Positions 1,229 to 22,749 of a stretch of 33,677 nt of DNA are shown here, one piece after another. The DNA comes from a virus, in IMG/VR virus record IMGVR_UViG_3300027741_000163, positions 1-33,677 of that record; one strand, written 5' to 3'. The notes under the pieces are model-generated. The model saw nothing but the letters and a program-made list of their open reading frames with translations. It did no database searches and was not told the origin of the DNA. The position numbers and the translations under genes were made by a program. The stretch's first letter is position 1; every line of letters starts with the position of its first letter.

Positions 1229-3070
1229 GTGAGCATGACAGAACAGCAGATTTGGTTGGCAACATTGGCAAAGGGGATGATTCCCGAGAAGTTCGGCGGA
1301 TCGATGGTTGAATACTTTGATGGCAAGCTTCGACTACCTCACTCGACACGCTACCCAATGTACATCGCCGAGGAGTCGCCGTGGCTAATTGAGCCAATGC
1401 GAGCCATTGGTGAACCAGGAATCAAGCGTGTGGACGTTCGTGGCCCTGCTGGCGCGGCAAAGTCATTGATTGGCGAGATGCACATTGCTTGGACAATCGA
1501 CAACGAACCTGGACTCTACTACTACGTCCACCAGTCTGATCCCGATGGAACAGATGCAATGGAGGATCGAATCTTGCCAATGCTTCAAGCCAATGACTTT
1601 TTGGCAAGGAAGCTTCCCAATGACCGTCACAAGCAACGGATTGCCAAGATCGTGTTTCCGCACATGAGTCTGTACTGCGTTGGGGCGAATATGTCCTCGG
1701 CGCAAAGCAAGCGTGTCAAATATTTGACGATGGAAGAACCGCATATGTACAAGCCGGGAATGATGACCGCTTTTGAGAAGCGATGCGAAGGGGTGCGGAA
1801 TGCAAAAATTTTAACCCTTTCCACCGGGAGTGTCCTCGGCGACGAGTCAGACGCCGCTTACCAGTCTGGCACTTGTGAGGAGTGGCAAGTGCCATGTCCG
1901 CACTGCCGTCAGTTCCAGCGCATGATTGATAGCAGAGATCGACTGATCTTTGAGCGGTCACCAGAGACCATCACCGAGAATGGTGAGTACATCTGGAATC
2001 GGATTCTGCCAACCGTCAGGTACAACTGCGAGCATTGCGGACTAGATTGGCCGAGTGACGAATCAAGTCGCCGCTCTCAAGCTCAACTTGGCAGATATGA
2101 AGTGACCAATCCCAACGCTCCGGCAAACCATCGCTCATTTCATTGGGAAGCCGTAGCTGTGCATTATTTCAACCTTGGTCAAATACTCATGGAGAAGCTG
2201 AAAGCGTCAACAGCAGCCAAAGCGGGGCAAATTGAGCCACTCAGAGATTATATGCAAAAGCGACGAGCGTTGGCATGGGACGAGTCTCCCGCTGACAGTG
2301 AGGCAAATATTGAGTTTGATCGGATCAAGGGTGCGTATTTGAAGCGAGAACCATTCGATGGCGAGATCGGGCGCTTCCTGTGCATCGATAACCAAGCAGG
2401 GCGAGCCAGCAAAGGCGAAGGCGCTCATCGATGGTACGTCTGCCGAGCGTTCGGGCAGTCCGAATCCCGCATCATTGACGAGGGGCGAATCGTCACTTGG
2501 GAGGAGTTGGAGGAACTGCGGATCGAACTTGGCGTTGAACCTGGACGAACACTTGTGGACATTGCGTTTGACACTCAAGCCGTGCAGGAGGTGTGCGTTC
2601 GGTACGGATGGCAGGGTCTGTGGGGCGATTCAACCAATCGCCGCGAGTTTCCGCATCACGAAAATTTCAATGGTCAGCGGATTGTTCGCAAATATCCATT
2701 CTCCTCGGTCAACGTAGGCCATGTAGGCATTGGCAAAGGAGGCAAGGTGCGTCAATCCAGATATTTTTTCTGGGCGCAACAACCAATCAAGAATATGTAT
2801 CACCGGATGCGTGGCGGCATGAGTACCTACAAATTCACCGCTCCGCAAAATGTCTCAGTCGAGTATCAGAAACAGACCAGCGTTGAGTTTAAGCGGCAGG
2901 AGGTGGACAAATCTGGACAGAAAAAGTGGTCTTGGACAGTTAGCAAAGGGAAGGCAAACCACTTACTTGACTGCGACCAGATGTGTCTGGTAAGCGCCCT
3001 GCTTGACGCAAGACTGCGCTCAGTATTGTTTACCACAGGCGATGCGGCAATTGAAGAGGCAGAGGTTTAA
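1229..3070 (+). CDS. Terminase large subunit (GpA family ATPase-nuclease)
   Basis: 613 residues, close to the usual GpA length (lambda gpA is 641). ATP-driven DNA translocase and end-cutting nuclease of the packaging motor. Visible features: Walker A-like GPAGAAKS at 72-79; Walker B-like YLTMEEP at 165-171; two Cys pairs, CPHC 223-226 and CEHC 267-270, typical of the GpA zinc-binding insertion; and acidic motifs in the C-terminal half (FLCIDNQ, DIAFDTQ, LLDCDQM) consistent with the RNase H-fold nuclease. The first in-frame start is GTG 1229, just after an in-frame TAG at 1223; ATG 1235 is an alternative. A GGAGG at 1186-1190 is too far upstream to serve either start. Its stop overlaps the next ATG (TAATG). 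Confidence 0.95.
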   Translation: MSMTEQQIWLATLAKGMIPEKFGGSMVEYFDGKLRLPHSTRYPMYIAEESPWLIEPMRAIGEPGIKRVDVRGPAGAAKSLIGEMHIAWTIDNEPGLYYYVHQSDPDGTDAMEDRILPMLQANDFLARKLPNDRHKQRIAKIVFPHMSLYCVGANMSSAQSKRVKYLTMEEPHMYKPGMMTAFEKRCEGVRNAKILTLSTGSVLGDESDAAYQSGTCEEWQVPCPHCRQFQRMIDSRDRLIFERSPETITENGEYIWNRILPTVRYNCEHCGLDWPSDESSRRSQAQLGRYEVTNPNAPANHRSFHWEAVAVHYFNLGQILMEKLKASTAAKAGQIEPLRDYMQKRRALAWDESPADSEANIEFDRIKGAYLKREPFDGEIGRFLCIDNQAGRASKGEGAHRWYVCRAFGQSESRIIDEGRIVTWEELEELRIELGVEPGRTLVDIAFDTQAVQEVCVRYGWQGLWGDSTNRREFPHHENFNGQRIVRKYPFSSVNVGHVGIGKGGKVRQSRYFFWAQQPIKNMYHRMRGGMSTYKFTAPQNVSVEYQKQTSVEFKRQEVDKSGQKKWSWTVSKGKANHLLDCDQMCLVSALLDARLRSVLFTTGDAAIEEAEV

Positions 3071-3369
3071 TGTTGCGATGTGTAAAATTTCTGTTATCCA
3101 TATTCTATATGGCAGTCAGACAATTGCTGGTTGGATGTACCGTAGCCGAGTTAAATGAAATTCGTGCTGCGGCATTATCGTGTATCGTTGCCAATGCCGT
3201 TCGCGGTATTAGCTACTCTATTGCTGGACGGCAGTTTACTTTTCCAAGTTTGGAGTCTGCGGCAGGAATGCTTCAAGAGGCTAATTTTGCACTTGGCTTA
3301 CTTAACGGAACAAGGTCTATGAACGTCCGTGCAAACTTTAATCCATCCATTGGCAAGGGAACATCGTAA
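3070..3369 (+). CDS. Head-tail connector, gpW-like
   Basis: 99 residues as drawn. The central part, ELNEIRAAAL followed by SYSIAGRQFTFPSLESAAGML, resembles gpW-family connectors (a helix, a short beta hairpin ending in R.v.f, then a second helix). The position between large terminase and portal is exactly where gpW lies in lambda. Start choice is uncertain. ATG 3070 overlaps the terminase stop and would be translationally coupled, with AGAGG just upstream. It adds an odd hydrophobic leader (LRCVKFLLSIFY). ATG 3109 gives an 86-residue protein beginning MAVRQLL that fits the family better but lacks a Shine-Dalgarno sequence. Confidence 0.7.
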   Translation: MLRCVKFLLSIFYMAVRQLLVGCTVAELNEIRAAALSCIVANAVRGISYSIAGRQFTFPSLESAAGMLQEANFALGLLNGTRSMNVRANFNPSIGKGTS

Positions 3370-4923
3370 ATGAAACCATCACTGCTTGACCGAGCAATCG
3401 GAATCATCTCGCCAATGGCGGCAGTCCGCAGGTTTGCTGCCAAGCGCCTGCTCCACGAATTCAAATACGATGGAGCGCAATTTACCAATCGGCGATCTAA
3501 CGGCCCAGCGCAGATTGCTCCAAACTCGTTTCAAGTTCAACGTGATCGATTGCAGTTGCTGCGTGAGGCAACCGACTTAGAAAACAACTTCGCCCCAGCA
3601 AAGGTACTAAATCGGAAGTACGCTATGTACGTTGCACCTGTGGCGTATCACGCGCAGACTGGCGATGCAGCTCTGGACGCAGACATTGAGCGTTGGCTGA
3701 ATAACGAATGGTTTCCGCATTGTGACTCAGCCAACCGAGGAGTAGATTTCTTTCGCCTAATGGAATTTGGCGTCCTTGGCATGAACCGAGGTGGCGACTA
3801 CGGATGGGCATTCGTGCGTCCCGGCAGTGACCCGTCAATGAGTTACGAGGAACTGATCCGCTTGCCATTTCGCATTCAAGCAGTTGAGCCAGATCGGCTT
3901 GGCGGCGTTTACCAGAACGTGGTCTCCGAGGACTACGTCAGTGGCGTTTGCATTGGCCCAAATGGCGAGCCGACGGCATTTCGAGTATTCCGTCGCGGCA
4001 TGGCGGCAGGGCAGTATACCGATCCAGTCGATGTCCCAGCATCTCAATTTGTCCACTACACAGATCCGATGCAGATTGACGCCTACCGAGGAGTAAGCAA
4101 ATTAGACGCCGCTGTGGCAAATCTGCGTGACCTCTACGAGTTGATTGAGTTTACCAAAGGCAAATCAAAACTGGCATCGGCATTGACCATCTTCACCAAC
4201 TCCATTGGCGCATCCGCCGGATCAGGATCAATGGACGGATACGCATCCACGCATTTTGACAACCAGCAAACTGGATTGGCGCAGGACATTCAGTATGGGC
4301 AAATCAATCATCTTCCAGCGGGACAGGATGTAAAATTTCCAGACTCAGCATCGCCAGGAGCAGAGACACAATACCTCATGCAGTTGCTCCTCAAGATGAC
4401 GTGTATGAGTTACAACCTGCCTTATTCGTTTGGCCTCGACGCAACCAACCTTGGCGGCGTCTCCAGTCGCCTTGAAAGCGAGCAGGCCAAAGCGGAGTTC
4501 AACCGAGGACAGAAAGTTCTTGCTCCGTTGGCACACCGGATTAAGGACGCAGCTCTGCTCGACGCTATTGCTAAAGGCATCTTCCCAATCTCGGCAATGG
4601 AGAAGATTTGCTATGGACGCTGGAGCTACCGACCGCATCCCCAGCCGGACATTGGCAAGGAAGCAAATGCGAACATGAATCTCTATCAGAACGGACTGCT
4701 CAATCCAATGAGCTACTGGACTGAGGATTCCAAAGATCCCGAAAAAGTTGCGGATGACATGGTGCGCTGGGCAAAGATCAAGCGAGATAAAGCCTCTGCC
4801 GCCGGGTTTGCTGTTGAAGATGTCTTTGGTGCTGGCATGGCTCGCCCAACCAACATTTCGCAATCAGAGTCAATGTCCACCTCCATCGTCCCAGACCCTG
4901 CTGACGCGCCGCCTCAACAATGA
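3370..4923 (+). CDS. Portal protein (lambda gpB-like)
   Basis: 517 residues, the usual size for lambda-family portals. Forms the dodecameric ring at the capsid vertex through which DNA enters and leaves. Typical segments are the N-terminal basic region, the LREATDLENN...AKVLNRKYAMYV stretch matching the conserved portal helix that precedes the wing, the FRIQAVEPDRLGG segment, and the C-terminal LPYSFGLDATNLGGVSSRLESEQAKAEFNRGQ region, a strong lambda-portal signature (a D.T.xnySSxR-like loop followed by a long helix). Preceded by AAGGGA. Its stop overlaps the next start (ATGA). Confidence 0.93.
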   Translation: MKPSLLDRAIGIISPMAAVRRFAAKRLLHEFKYDGAQFTNRRSNGPAQIAPNSFQVQRDRLQLLREATDLENNFAPAKVLNRKYAMYVAPVAYHAQTGDAALDADIERWLNNEWFPHCDSANRGVDFFRLMEFGVLGMNRGGDYGWAFVRPGSDPSMSYEELIRLPFRIQAVEPDRLGGVYQNVVSEDYVSGVCIGPNGEPTAFRVFRRGMAAGQYTDPVDVPASQFVHYTDPMQIDAYRGVSKLDAAVANLRDLYELIEFTKGKSKLASALTIFTNSIGASAGSGSMDGYASTHFDNQQTGLAQDIQYGQINHLPAGQDVKFPDSASPGAETQYLMQLLLKMTCMSYNLPYSFGLDATNLGGVSSRLESEQAKAEFNRGQKVLAPLAHRIKDAALLDAIAKGIFPISAMEKICYGRWSYRPHPQPDIGKEANANMNLYQNGLLNPMSYWTEDSKDPEKVADDMVRWAKIKRDKASAAGFAVEDVFGAGMARPTNISQSESMSTSIVPDPADAPPQQ

Positions 4924-7805: not shown

Positions 7806-9278
7806 ATGAAAAAACCTCGTCCATTAATCGCGTTATCCGTAATCGTTGGAAATGAAGCAGATGTGCTTGAGCGATTTATTCGATCATTTTTCCCGGCAGT
7901 AGATACTGCGGTATTCACATTTGCTCGCGGCAATCTTCCGAGGGATGGAGGACAGGAAGTTATTGAGCGAGTATGCACCGAGCTTGGATTGCCATTCAAA
8001 ATCCTGCACTACGACAATGAGGTGGAGTTCGATCACGTTGACAACTTTGGTAAGGCTCGGCAGATGGGATGGTCAGCCTCCGAGAAGACAAAGGCAAAGT
8101 ACATAATGTGGGCAGACTGCGACGACATCTTTGACGAGGGGTCTGTCGAGCCTCTGCGGCGTCTGGCCACAGAAGGCAAGTATGACATCTTCATTTGTCC
8201 GTATAACGTGCGTGGTGGCATTGTGGTGCAACAGCAGGTGCTTCGTGAGCGAGTAGTGCGGAACAACAAGAAGGGCTACTGGCGTTATGCTATCCATGAG
8301 CAATTGGGATTCAAGAAAGAGGCAACCTATACCATCGCTCGGGAGGTGATTTTTTGGCATCGACCATTAGCCACTAAAGGTGGTGGTCGAGATCGCAACA
8401 CGAACATCCTTTCGCGGGAGGTTCGTGATGCATCCAGAAATTATTTCTACCTGCATCAAGAGGCGTTTGAAGGAAGGCAAGTTGCTAAGGCAAAGACATT
8501 TGGTCAAGCGGCGCTGAATTGCCCAGGGTTAGGCGTCCTAGAGCAATACGAGATCCTGCTAAATCTTGCTCAGTGCGAAGACGGGCCAATTGCTAAAAAA
8601 TATGCAGCCGAAGCATTTTCGGTCATGCCAGATCGCCGAGAAGCATTGGCATTGCTTTGTTCATACGCTATCGTGGACAAGAATTATCCAAAGGCAATGC
8701 AGCTTGCTACGGTGATGATTGGCATTCCAAAACCTGCACAAAGCTACTGGTGTCTGAATCATTTGTGGTACGCATGGAGAGGCACAGAACTTTTTGCTCA
8801 ATGCCTGCGGTTGACAGACGGTGAGATCGATGTATTTGAGAAGACCTACTTTGGAGAAGGAGGCCCAACTTTCTCAATCATCTACGCATCAGAGTCTTCT
8901 TATCAAATCGGATTGCAAGCTAGGGAGGCATGGCTAACAAACGCCGAGTACGCAAACAAGGTAGAGTGGATTTTTACGCTCAAGGACAGCGACAACGAGG
9001 CTTTGGAGATGTACAAGGGATTCCGCCATCAGATCTGCCAAAAAGACGCTACAATCGCCGATATGCTCGTTGCTGGAGCAAGCATTGCACGGGGCAAGAT
9101 AGTAATCCCGGCTGCAAACAACATTGTACCAAAAGACTTATGGGATTCGTGGATTAACAAGAACGCCACCATTCCAGAAACCAAAGAATTCTTGACTAGT
9201 GTTGTTGCTGAAGATTTGCTTCCAAATATTTACACGGTCATTGACAAGAGTCAAAATTTGAGTAACATTCCAACGTGA
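7806..9278 (+). CDS. Glycosyltransferase (GT2-like) in the virion module
   Basis: 490 residues. The N-terminus is a GT-A fold family-2-like domain: ALSVIVGNEADVLERFIRSF, then a YIMWADCDDIFD segment whose D-C-D-D is the metal and nucleotide-sugar binding DxD motif (about residues 102-108). Residues about 195-320 look like a TPR-type helical region (EAFEGRQVAKAKTFGQAAL, YAAEAFSVMPDRREALALL), often attached to such enzymes. Residues about 355-470 begin FSIIYASES and contain WIFTLKDSDNEA, suggesting a second, degenerate glycosyltransferase-like fold. It sits between capsid and head-completion genes, after a terminator and overlapping the next gene (GTGA). Possible roles are glycosylation of capsid or tail protein, or change of a host glycan. 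Confidence 0.8.
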   Translation: MKKPRPLIALSVIVGNEADVLERFIRSFFPAVDTAVFTFARGNLPRDGGQEVIERVCTELGLPFKILHYDNEVEFDHVDNFGKARQMGWSASEKTKAKYIMWADCDDIFDEGSVEPLRRLATEGKYDIFICPYNVRGGIVVQQQVLRERVVRNNKKGYWRYAIHEQLGFKKEATYTIAREVIFWHRPLATKGGGRDRNTNILSREVRDASRNYFYLHQEAFEGRQVAKAKTFGQAALNCPGLGVLEQYEILLNLAQCEDGPIAKKYAAEAFSVMPDRREALALLCSYAIVDKNYPKAMQLATVMIGIPKPAQSYWCLNHLWYAWRGTELFAQCLRLTDGEIDVFEKTYFGEGGPTFSIIYASESSYQIGLQAREAWLTNAEYANKVEWIFTLKDSDNEALEMYKGFRHQICQKDATIADMLVAGASIARGKIVIPAANNIVPKDLWDSWINKNATIPETKEFLTSVVAEDLLPNIYTVIDKSQNLSNIPT

Positions 9279-18637: not shown

Positions 18638-19017
18638 ACCCAAAAACTCTCATCCTGTTACCCTCCCTCTTCATCCTCTCGTCCTGCTCCACCGAGTGGA
18701 TGCAGAGCAATGTAACCAAAGCAGTTCTGTCCGAGATTGGAACGATGGTCTTCAACGCTGCTGTTCAATCGTTTACCTCTGATAGCAAGGTAGACTTTGG
18801 TCATTCAATGGCACAAGGCTTGTGGCAGAATCCACAGGTGACCGCAGGATCGATCAAACGCATTGCCGATGCATGGAGTGCTGATCACCTCCCAAAACTC
18901 TCTACAGAGGCTTACAAGGCGTATGCGTATGCCAACCCACAGAACTCTAAACAGCAAGCGCAAGTAACAGATGCAATTGCCAGCGCGATTAGTAATGCGG
19001 CGCAAAACAAATTCTAA
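18634..19017 (+). CDS. Lipoprotein of the lysis cassette
   Basis: 127 residues from ATG 18634, which overlaps the preceding stop (ATGA). Starting here gives a clear type II signal: KTLILLPSLFILSSC, with lipobox LSSC and Cys at about residue 18. The mature part is mostly helical (SEIGTMVFNAAVQSF, GSIKRIADAWSADHL, QVTDAIASAISNAAQNKF) with no second membrane segment. An outer-membrane lipoprotein between holin and endolysin genes might act as an o-spanin-like partner in disrupting the outer membrane, but it is longer than typical Rz1 proteins and has no Pro-rich region. The signal is directly visible; the spanin role is inferred. Confidence 0.7.
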   Translation: MNPKTLILLPSLFILSSCSTEWMQSNVTKAVLSEIGTMVFNAAVQSFTSDSKVDFGHSMAQGLWQNPQVTAGSIKRIADAWSADHLPKLSTEAYKAYAYANPQNSKQQAQVTDAIASAISNAAQNKF

Positions 19018-19511
19018 TGAAACTTGCACAACGATTAGTTGACCTAGCCTTGAAAGAGGTTGGGACAGAAGAAGTTCGCAACACAAATTGTGGGCCTCGC
19101 GTCAACGAATACAAATCGGCAACGTGGCTCCCTCCGGATCAGGCGTGGCCGTGGTGCGCGGCGTTTATCGACTGGCTCGTTATGCGAGCGATGGAGGAGG
19201 AAAGCGAGCGAAAATTTACCTTTGAGCGACCCCGCACCGCCGGGGCTTGGGATCTTGAAAATTGGTCGATGAAGCAAGACGGCTCGACGTGGACAAAACT
19301 CAACCCGCAGGCAGGCGACATAGCCGCCGGGGACATCGTAATTTTTACTTTTTCGCACGTTGGGCTGGCGGTCGACTCGCCCGCGAAGGGGCTTGTGGCT
19401 ACGGTGGAGGGAAACTCCCAGGCCGGAACGACTTCACGCGATGGTGGTGGAGTTTTTAAACACAACCGAAAACTTTCGCTAATTAAAACAAGAATTCGTT
19501 TTACCGTGTAA
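19017..19511 (+). CDS. CHAP-domain endolysin with a replaced C-terminus
   Basis: 164 residues. Cysteine peptidase/amidase that cuts peptidoglycan. Catalytic Cys47 in WPWCAAFIDW, His114 in FTFSHVGLAV and the Glu131/Asn133 region in TVEGNS form the expected CHAP set. AGDIAAGDIVIF is the usual strand before the His. Starts inside the lipoprotein stop (TAATG). The last 25 residues (SRDGGGV to IRFTV, coded by 19434-19508) match the end of the following HNH protein at 20 of 25 positions. GC at third positions drops from 15/21 in the 21 codons just before (19371-19433) to 6/24 in the last 24 codons, so the 3' end appears to have a different origin from the body of the gene. Confidence 0.85.
   Translation: MKLAQRLVDLALKEVGTEEVRNTNCGPRVNEYKSATWLPPDQAWPWCAAFIDWLVMRAMEEESERKFTFERPRTAGAWDLENWSMKQDGSTWTKLNPQAGDIAAGDIVIFTFSHVGLAVDSPAKGLVATVEGNSQAGTTSRDGGGVFKHNRKLSLIKTRIRFTV
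19434..19511 (+). repeat. Recoded endolysin tail, upstream copy
   Basis: Codes 25 residues plus stop. Matches 20202-20279 at 20 of 25 residues but only 48 of 75 bases; 14 of the 20 shared residues use different codons. This copy is A/T-rich at third positions (6/24 GC) unlike the gene it ends. Confidence 0.85.
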
Positions 19512-19514
19512 TTC

Positions 19515-20279
19515 ATGACTGCAAAACAAGCATCTCATCGAAGGGAAAAAGAGCGCGTTAAAATGCGCTTACTGACCGAGCCGGATAGTGAATGGTCTTT
19601 GAATTTTAAGACCAAGAGAAAGGCACAGCAGAAGCGTTGGATTGCAAGGAACCAGGATGCGAAAAACCGACACGGCAAGACGTATTACGACAAGCACAAG
19701 GTAAAATTAATCGCTAAAAACGTCGCATTAAAGAGGCAAAAAAAGATTGAGAACGGATGGAGTCTTCGCAAACCACAAACAAAAGAAGAATCAAAAGCGC
19801 GAGTAAAGAAGTGGTGCTTTGATAACCGTGAAAGGCTCAACGCTAAACTGCGAGCCCGAAGAGCATCCGATCCCTCGTTTAAGATTAGTTGCAATCTTAG
19901 GAAACGCCTTTCAGCCTTGCTACGACTAGCATCTACCAAAAAGACATCACAAACGCTCGCTTTGCTTGGGTGTCCTCTTCCGTCGTTTATGTTTTATCTG
20001 GAAAGCAAATTTGAGGTTGGAATGACGTGGGCAAATTATGGAGAGTGGCACATCGACCACATTATGCCGTGTGCAATCTTCGACCTTACCCAGCTGGATC
20101 ATCAAAAGAGGTGCTTTCACTTCTCCAATATGCAGCCTCTTTGGGCGGGGGATAACCGCAGGAAATCGGACTCCATTCCAGACTCCGCTGATACTCAAGG
20201 AAGCAGAGACGGAGGAGGAGTGTGGAAAAAGGAGCGAAAGATTTCCCTGATTAAAAGCCGCATCCGCTTCACCGTATGA
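19515..20279 (+). CDS. HNH homing endonuclease fused to an endolysin tail
   Basis: 254 residues. Residues 1-140 are very Lys/Arg-rich and helical, as expected for DNA binding. The nuclease core is WHIDHI at 178-183, a second conserved part CFHFSNMQPLW at 200-210 (Asn205), and Asn214 in GDNRRKSD, the layout of phage HNH endonucleases of the H-I-D-H type. Residues 230-254 (SRDGGGV to IRFTV) are not part of an HNH enzyme but a copy of the CHAP endolysin end. Its codons (14/24 GC at third positions) resemble the body of the endolysin. Its TGA overlaps the following small gene (ATGA), the usual junction style here. I infer that the endonuclease gene was inserted into the endolysin gene and inherited the original 3' end. 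Confidence 0.85.
   Translation: MTAKQASHRREKERVKMRLLTEPDSEWSLNFKTKRKAQQKRWIARNQDAKNRHGKTYYDKHKVKLIAKNVALKRQKKIENGWSLRKPQTKEESKARVKKWCFDNRERLNAKLRARRASDPSFKISCNLRKRLSALLRLASTKKTSQTLALLGCPLPSFMFYLESKFEVGMTWANYGEWHIDHIMPCAIFDLTQLDHQKRCFHFSNMQPLWAGDNRRKSDSIPDSADTQGSRDGGGVWKKERKISLIKSRIRFTV
20202..20279 (+). repeat. Original-looking endolysin tail, downstream copy
   Basis: Second copy of the 25-codon endolysin end, in frame with the HNH gene. GC-rich third positions and the ATGA overlap with the next gene suggest that this is the ancestral end of the endolysin gene. Confidence 0.8.
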
Positions 20280-20377
20280 TCAGCGAAGGCTTAAAATCTT
20301 CTACTGCGTTTGCGCTAATCTGGGCCATTGCGGTGCTTGCGTTTGCGTGGATTTTAGGAAGATCAATCAAGGAATAA
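20276..20377 (+). CDS. 33-residue membrane peptide
   Basis: Starts at ATG overlapping the stop of the HNH gene (ATGA) and ends TAA 20375-20377. One hydrophobic segment (TAFALIWAIAVLAFAWILG) with short polar ends (MISEGLKSS, RSIKE). Because the downstream endolysin tail was probably the real endolysin end, this peptide would originally have followed the endolysin directly, making it a member of the lysis cassette (possible holin, antiholin or spanin-like peptide). Too short for a family call. Confidence 0.6.
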   Translation: MISEGLKSSTAFALIWAIAVLAFAWILGRSIKE

Positions 20378-20380
20378 TTT

Positions 20381-21016
20381 ATGAAAAATGACGTATTTAA
20401 TCGGCTCACTGCCGCGATCAAAAGCAACGGAGACATTGATCAGCATCTAGTCTTCCTCACGGGCGAGGCATCAAAATGCTCGTCAATCCTTGAGTGTGGT
20501 GTCCGAGGGATCGTCAGCACATGGGCATTCATTGCTGGACTGAGCATGAATCAGTTCGCAGGCAAGACGCTTCATTGCTGTGACATAGCGTACATTGGAG
20601 CGGATGCGCTTAACGAGGTGACCGGACATTGTGAAGCGTCTGAGATTGGATTTAACTTCTTTCATCAGAACGATCTGACGCTTCCAAACACTCGGTATGA
20701 CATGATCTTTATTGATACCCTCCATTGCTACGGGCAACTCCGCCGGGAATTGGAGAAGTTTTCACAGAACACGGACGTTATCATCCTGCACGATACGCAG
20801 ATTGATGGCGAGGTGGGAGAGCCAGTTAGGAATGGTTGGGATGTAGCTTCGTTGAGCGAGCAATTTGGATGGGACAAATCTGACTTTGAGCTTGGGTTAA
20901 CTCCGGCGATTGATGAGTTTTTGATTACCAACCCAAACTGGCACATCGCCTACAAAACCGAGCATCAGAACGGTCTCACAATGCTGTGCAGAGCAACACC
21001 TTGCGAGAAATTGTAG
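20381..21016 (+). CDS. Class I SAM methyltransferase-like protein
   Basis: 211 residues. SILECGVRGIVSTWAFIAGL is the glycine-rich SAM-binding motif I region (E.G...G). LHCCDIAY fits motif II, with an acidic residue at the strand end. RYDMIFIDTLHCYGQLRRELEKF and VIILHDT form the motif IV/V area usual in methyltransferase-24 and cephalosporin-hydroxylase-like proteins, where the D-x-x-H-x-Y pattern is typical. Such enzymes often modify sugars and occur near glycosyltransferases. Here the neighbours are the lysis cassette and a regulator. Substrate unknown. Ends with TAG and is followed by a promoter-like gap. Confidence 0.65.
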   Translation: MKNDVFNRLTAAIKSNGDIDQHLVFLTGEASKCSSILECGVRGIVSTWAFIAGLSMNQFAGKTLHCCDIAYIGADALNEVTGHCEASEIGFNFFHQNDLTLPNTRYDMIFIDTLHCYGQLRRELEKFSQNTDVIILHDTQIDGEVGEPVRNGWDVASLSEQFGWDKSDFELGLTPAIDEFLITNPNWHIAYKTEHQNGLTMLCRATPCEKL

Positions 21017-21947: not shown

Positions 21948-22186
21948 GCAAAACCATTACCCTAAGCATTGATTGCAAGCTAATCGACAAAGCAAAACTT
22001 AAGCCATACACACGGAAGGACGGCACAGAAGCGTTGTTTTTAGCGATGACCTTGGTGGAGACGCCAAACTCGCCGTATGGTGAATGGATGGTTAAGCAGG
22101 ACTCGACCAAGGAAGAGCGCGAGGCGAAGGTCAAACTGCCAATTCTTGGTAACGCCAAAACTTTAGGATGGAAGGCAGGAGCATGA
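21944..22186 (+). CDS. Hypothetical protein before the ERF gene
   Basis: 80 residues. Beta-rich with TITLSIDCKLIDKAKLKPYTRKDGTEALFLAMTLVETPNSPYGEWMVKQ, a pattern I associate with small phage proteins next to ERF or ssDNA-binding genes; it may be a ssDNA-binding OB-like protein, though this is not demonstrable by eye. It runs directly into the ERF gene with overlap. Confidence 0.6.
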   Translation: MSKTITLSIDCKLIDKAKLKPYTRKDGTEALFLAMTLVETPNSPYGEWMVKQDSTKEEREAKVKLPILGNAKTLGWKAGA

Positions 22187-22749
22187 ACAAGAGCGACTCA
22201 ATCGCGGCGTTGGCGGCGGCGCTTTCCAAGGCGCAGGGGCAGATGGGCGGCGCAAAGAAGGAGGTGTCCAACACTTTTTTCAAGAGCAAATATGCTGATC
22301 TTGCCTCAGTTTGGGAAGCTGCTCGCCTCCCACTCACGAATAATGGGCTGGCAGTCATTCAACTGCCAGGGCGTGACGCTCAAGGTCATTTCGTTGAGAC
22401 TGTCCTTACTCACTCCTCGGGCGAATGGGTGAGTGGCATCTTCTACATCACGCCGCTCAAAGATGATCCGCAACAAATAATGAGCGCCACCACTTACGCG
22501 AGGAGAGGATCGCTGGCTAGTATTTTAGGCATCGCTCCAGAAGATGACGATGGCGAAGGCGCGATGGGCAGACCAGCACAGGCAGCAGCAGTTCGTCCGG
22601 CATCTAAGCCAGTTAAGGAAGGGCCATCTGAAGAGCAGCAGGACAAGTGGATCAATGACCACAATGCAAGGGTGGCAGCATCAAAGGTGGTGCAGACAAA
22701 GCAAGACCTTCGCAACATGGAAATCGACAACTCAGACATCCCATTCTAA
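22183..22749 (+). CDS. erf: ERF-family single-strand annealing protein
   Basis: 188 residues from ATG 22183, which has GGAAGGCAGGAGC upstream and overlaps the preceding stop; an earlier start at 22168 is less likely. Typical ERF elements: AAALSKAQGQMGGAKKEVSNTFFKSKYADLASVWEAARLPLTNNGLAVIQ (the KskYADLasv...r..l..ngl pattern) and IMSATTYARRGSLASILGIAPEDDDGE, the conserved end of the core domain. The acidic tail (NMEIDNSDIPF) resembles those of recombination proteins that bind partner enzymes. Role: homologous recombination and DNA end annealing. Confidence 0.9.
   Translation: MNKSDSIAALAAALSKAQGQMGGAKKEVSNTFFKSKYADLASVWEAARLPLTNNGLAVIQLPGRDAQGHFVETVLTHSSGEWVSGIFYITPLKDDPQQIMSATTYARRGSLASILGIAPEDDDGEGAMGRPAQAAAVRPASKPVKEGPSEEQQDKWINDHNARVAASKVVQTKQDLRNMEIDNSDIPF

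Follow-up and report, generated by a model that had tools for sequence, protein, structure and literature searches.

Phage homing endonucleases are known mainly from intergenic sites, introns and inteins, as an insertion that disrupts a gene does harm. In the window, i.e. the whole stretch of 33,677 bases that makes up virus record G000, an HNH endonuclease gene follows the endolysin gene in the lysis cluster, and the two proteins end in nearly the same tail. This raises the question which of the two tails is the original end of the endolysin, and how the other came to be there.

Two copies of the endolysin end

The lysis cluster consists, in this order, of a lipoprotein-like ORF, the CHAP endolysin, the HNH ORF, a membrane peptide and a methyltransferase-like gene. 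The features relevant here are:

19017-19511, + strand: CHAP endolysin ORF
19017-19418, + strand: endolysin (CHAP) body, original to the phage lineage and ending with the EGNS codons (83% DNA identity to relative L001)
19419-19511, + strand: substitute, apparently foreign, A/T-rich endolysin 3' end, putatively carried by the element (42/81 bases in common with L001 vs 83% in the body); its left border is uncertain by some tens of bases
19515-20279, + strand: HNH ORF, whole
19515-20189, + strand: HNH nuclease coding part, 225 codons (phrog_1035 match; relatives end at the domain)
20190-20279, + strand: displaced native endolysin 3' end, fused in frame to the HNH gene and supplying its stop (identity to L001 and ATGA junction)
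19419-20189, + strand: complete inserted unit of 771 bp (257 codons), made up of the substitute end and the HNH gene (absent in relatives)
20276-20377, + strand: lysis-cluster membrane peptide, 33 residues, whose start lies in the ATGA at the native end of the endolysin
20381-21016: methyltransferase-like gene

Elsewhere in the window, a gene for an Erf-like single-strand annealing protein (22168-22749) is located near the lysis cluster, and a glycosyltransferase-like gene (phrog_13126, 7806-9278) directly 3' of the major head protein gene.

Over their last 25 residues, the tails of the endolysin and the HNH protein (SRDGGGVFKHNRKLSLIKTRIRFTV vs SRDGGGVWKKERKISLIKSRIRFTV) are identical at 20 positions, with 48 of the 75 bases in common; for the last 27 codons including the stop the values are 21/27 residues and 50/81 bases, and 15 of the 21 shared codons differ. 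The DNA similarity score of 26 exceeds that of all 1000 dinucleotide shuffles (best shuffle 13), and the translated flanks score 102, whereas mismatched flanks have a median score of 34, with the 99th percentile at 51. Third positions are G or C in 6 of 26 codons of the endolysin tail and in 15 of 26 of the HNH tail, and the HNH-fused copy overlaps the next lysis ORF (20276-20377) by ATGA. Both the tail resemblance and the overlap had been reported in an earlier note on this DNA, and a recount reproduced them. The same note took the codon differences for a special recoding of the gene end, which we can rule out: in the tail pair, a fraction of 0.68 of the shared residues is encoded by differing codons, typical of diverged homologues, for which this fraction averages 0.66 over 787 natural tail pairs. 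Hence, foreign origin and not special recoding explains the new endolysin end, which looks as if it was acquired from a diverged homologue. A block to recombination between the two copies is a plausible consequence of their divergence.

Identification of the native end

Two related records, L001 and L002, contain no HNH gene. Their endolysins are 82% and 70% identical in protein to that of the window, their lipoprotein-like genes both show 85% identity to that of the window, the methyltransferase-like gene of L002 shows 92%, and collinear peptides are found at the place of the membrane peptide. In both records, the single endolysin end joins the next lysis peptide via ATGA, like the HNH-fused copy. 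This copy has 60 of 81 bases in common with L001, being slightly more diverged than the gene body (p 0.02), whereas the present endolysin end shares only 42 of 81 although the bodies are 83% identical (binomial 7e-11). The match of HNH-less relatives to 20202-20279, in DNA and in junction, had been predicted in the earlier note. Sequence comparison thus largely supports its core interpretation of an insertion, with the HNH-fused copy as the displaced native end and the A/T-rich end as the newcomer.

The position of the insertion near the EGNS codons, likewise proposed before, is borne out by an empty site in frame. Joining 19418 to 20190 takes out 771 bp or 257 codons and yields EGNSDTQGSRDGGG, in which EGNS is directly followed by DTQGSRDGGG; the joined sequence fits the family motif EGN[ST]DxxGSRxGGG without a change in length, while the present endolysin has one extra residue. 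Neither L001 nor L002 nor any of the 80 endolysin relatives examined contains the unit 19419-20189, and none of the 80 has a second endolysin tail. An HNH-less relative with the A/T-rich end was looked for as counter-evidence; no relative carries such an end. A search for its donor led to the L002 contig only in a pattern scan and to nothing with tblastn. The insertion and its polarity, the replacement of the gene end in frame, and the absence of the unit from relatives are established.

An HNH gene flanked by two copies of one gene end could also stem from a segmental tandem duplication within the phage's own endolysin gene that doubled its end, the HNH gene having inserted between the copies later. 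As it is the upstream copy which is diverged from L001 (42/81 bases vs 83% for the attached body), the downstream one being much less so, and as no relative has a tandem tail lacking the HNH gene, we consider this very unlikely. A single metagenomic virus record, as the window is, with an A/T-rich end found nowhere else would fit an assembly chimera of two phages. Yet neither reading frame is broken at either junction, the flanking genes on the far side match L002 at 92%, and P8625, an isolated and separately sequenced phage, has a similar architecture (see below), so that a chimera is extremely improbable.

The endolysin and the HNH nuclease

The endolysin matches PHROG endolysin families, and Pfam CHAP only below its cut-off. 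Its residues C47, H114 and E131-G132-N133 are invariant in relatives, and the best fold matches are LysIME-EF1, PlyGRCS, LysGH15 and LysK; it thus shows the CHAP fold with Cys, His and EGN motif expected of a CHAP endolysin. In the structure model (mean pLDDT 82), the substitute tail forms the two terminal core strands of the predicted fold. Without this tail the endolysin would, according to the model, stop just past the active-site motif. As the substitute end appears to complete the CHAP fold, the endolysin would remain whole.

The HNH protein matches phrog_1035 (E 7e-13), a family which carries the PHROG label 'endonuclease VII'. The motif W-H-x-D-H, N205, N214 and K217 are invariant in 20 relatives, and D181, H182, N205 and N214 provide the DH, central N and distal N of H-N-N nucleases. 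Neither Pfam nor NCBIfam has a profile that matches the window protein; for one relative, there is a weak match to HNH_4. The structure model is poor as a whole (pTM 0.46), so the low pLDDT of residues 219-254 (<50) says little, and a fold search with it gave no match below E 1. HNH relatives normally end at the nuclease domain, with tails of mostly 0-5 residues compared with 32 in the window, and hence the tail is borrowed. A tail conserved across the HNH family, which would have spoken against the earlier note, was not seen; relatives without such a tail rule it out as a part of this family.

Other classes of mobile element were considered. A group I intron or intein is not indicated: in 18900-20500 no Rfam match came near the gathering score, no intron RNA was found, and neither the endolysin nor the HNH protein has an intein domain. 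F-CphI and other Endo VII-motif (DHHRN) endonucleases are likewise phage-borne and adjoin a conserved gene (PMC6083498), but have a DHDH core and flanking CxxC pairs; the window protein has neither, reading WHIDHIMP with N205 and N214, and was not assigned to this group.

Proposed mechanism and known systems

The arrangement is probably due to a homing-type HNH element of ~771 bp, inserted after the EGNS codons with a substitute 3' end that displaced the native one. The element, comprising the substitute endolysin 3' end and the HNH gene, would enter the endolysin gene after the active-site motif EGNS, and its substitute end would complete the CHAP fold and keep the enzyme whole. The original end has come to lie 3' of the HNH gene, which continues into it in frame and uses its stop. 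By analogy with the systems below, the HNH protein may cut uninterrupted endolysin genes near the EGNS codons or the corresponding codons of the conserved EGN motif. The HNH-bearing copy would then serve as template for repair of the break by phage recombination, whose two arms would be the upstream body and the displaced end, and the Erf-like protein could perform the joining. The occupied allele would be immune to cutting, because the cut site is split and the end differs.

In its layout the locus resembles the WHO elements at FBA1 of Torulaspora and Lachancea (Coughlan 2020, PMC7282813), in which the nuclease cuts FBA1, a resistant 3' end takes the place of the old one, and the latter is pushed downstream, where it serves as a recombination arm. 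In both cases a full-length host gene with a replaced, foreign 3' end, the nuclease and the displaced old fragment follow one another in this order, and splicing is not needed; in yeast the unit consists of the nuclease and the resistance-giving end. WHO nucleases, however, are HO-like, intein-derived LAGLIDADG-type proteins with zinc fingers, and their cleavage was shown in yeast. The phage protein has an HNH-type motif, belongs to phrog_1035 and is fused in frame to the displaced end, and its cutting is proposed by analogy. Hence, the element would work like WHO, without being a member of the WHO protein family.

Fungal mitochondrial mobile ORFs with inserted C-termini, known from Allomyces atp6 and from Glomus atp6, atp9, cox2 and nad3 (Beaudet 2013, PMC3630166), are similar in that a foreign end keeps the host protein whole and the native end is found behind the nuclease ORF. 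For atp6, the inserted end has only 63.5% DNA similarity to the native one, and it is the latter that matches relatives (PMC3630166). These ORFs encode LAGLIDADG or GIY-YIG nucleases, in contrast to the HNH nuclease in a phage lysis gene. By analogy, the mechanism proposed here best matches these two groups of elements, from whose likeness both HNH cutting and repair by copying of the unit are inferred. Free-standing homing endonucleases of T4-like phages (seg, mob) are also lone nucleases beside a conserved gene, near or overlapping the upstream ORF; they usually stand between genes, or split a gene, as mobE does in nrdA and mobA in gene 60, and the available part of the review in question describes no replaced gene end (PMC2988022). 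According to a survey, phage nuclease genes occur at boundaries of exchange (PMC10448857).

Parallel loci beside related HNH genes

Related HNH genes were examined for sequence that recurs on their two sides. The terminase of P8625, an isolated Verrucomicrobia phage, ends in KMAMVCASMCKNLGIERVEKG and a stop, followed by an HNH gene and by a stretch encoding AVCAAMCKNLAVAVDET and a stop. The terminases of the HNH-less L300 and L303 end exactly in AVCAAMCKNLAVAVDET and a stop, with 48 of 51 bases of the end in common and a closely matching downstream region. Judged from this alignment, the P8625 terminase is a parallel case polarised by relatives; the genome paper of this phage makes no mention of an endonuclease. 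In L217, a helicase ends in QSKARRKVYKTLGLKEA and a stop and the HNH protein in frame in QSKARAKVYKTLGCKEG and a stop, as in the window; polarisation within its order failed, the helicase being found in no other of 142 genomes.

Elsewhere the HNH gene is antisense. It lies between two copies of the 3' end of a small phage gene, a DUF7178 gene in L192 and a Pyr_excise gene in L151, where the displaced copy has the usual ending of the gene's family. In L365 (1603-4143), a DNA ligase end of ~80 residues is found on both sides; since the displaced end here continues, as a fusion, the first half of another gene, this locus has been further rearranged. The repeated end is tmRNA in L203 and L267, records titled Pelagibacteraceae, and tRNA-Met in the Pelagibacteraceae assemblies L212 and L241. 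At L203:2359-3768, L267:3-1521, L212:2519-3458 and L241:2504-4106, the antisense HNH gene is placed between the intact RNA gene and a partial 3' copy, and in the first three no other sizeable ORF was seen between the copies.

Translated flank copies were found for 8 of 159 HNH genes and 4 of 294 control ORFs of the same loci (p 0.02; one tandem-HNH hit left out), and copies at the DNA level for 6 of 169 and 1 of 304, respectively (p 0.01). This enrichment is modest and, as the thresholds were chosen after seeing the hits, only a lead; the strength of the parallel evidence is in the individual polarised cases. For most related HNH genes, a gene-end copy was not detectable. Matches in L128 (merely two adjoining HNH genes) and L219 (a truncated-ORF artefact) were discarded, and the ligase of L131/L123 (KYLYGDSRDT vs KILHGEERDI) and the terminase of L032/L034 (ITGI before the stop) are suggestive, yet too short for counting.

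The parallel loci bear on a further explanation, in which the HNH gene was free-standing behind the endolysin of a diverged phage and the break was repaired by one-sided copying of the donor end and the HNH gene, with illegitimate joining on the right. The foreign end would then be the co-conversion tract of one event instead of travelling cargo. It is established that sequence around the sites of phage homing endonucleases undergoes co-conversion (PMC2988022), and several HNH relatives adjoin a gene without a visible displaced end, e.g. L286 behind a terminase. At the right junction, however, the frame is kept and the motif regains precisely its length, and unrelated genes show displaced ends of a similar kind; this course of events is thus unlikely. 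We favour the homing element with its own substitute end.

The earlier note regarded the endolysin as a lone phage case, which is too narrow in view of the eukaryotic precedents and of several other genes beside related HNH genes. These arrangements suggest a recurring way into important genes without destroying them. Whether this HNH family constitutes a widespread, hitherto unnamed class of homing elements that replace gene ends in phages and bacteria, making chimeric host genes by means of a substitute 3' end, with terminase, helicase, ligase, endolysin, tmRNA and tRNA as targets, appears to us evenly balanced. In the literature searched, which included few subscription journals, we found no earlier account of such replaced gene ends from either phages or bacteria. 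A unit that brings the missing gene end avoids the harm of gene insertion without splicing. It would account for chimeric phage gene ends and for misleading terminase and lysin trees, and would be a natural counterpart of the 'rescue' in gene-drive designs. As the window, P8625 and L217 retain both end copies, cut sites, immunity and mobility are directly testable.

Two loci deviate from this pattern. In L374, copies of the terminase end flank the HNH gene, and the gene's own end matches relatives while the displaced copy does not; the polarity is therefore unlike that of P8625. In the set L374:2601-3610 and L397-L438, a terminase is accompanied by an HNH gene and by a further terminase end of decayed appearance, and in >20 close relatives without the HNH gene the sequence just past the terminase stop is very variable. 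In L186 (2618-5692), the HNH gene (2710-3423) is located just 5' of a 754-codon gene with an intein-like Hint region, and ~17 codons from the start of this gene occur a second time on the upstream side of the HNH gene, which may be the same behaviour at a 5' end.
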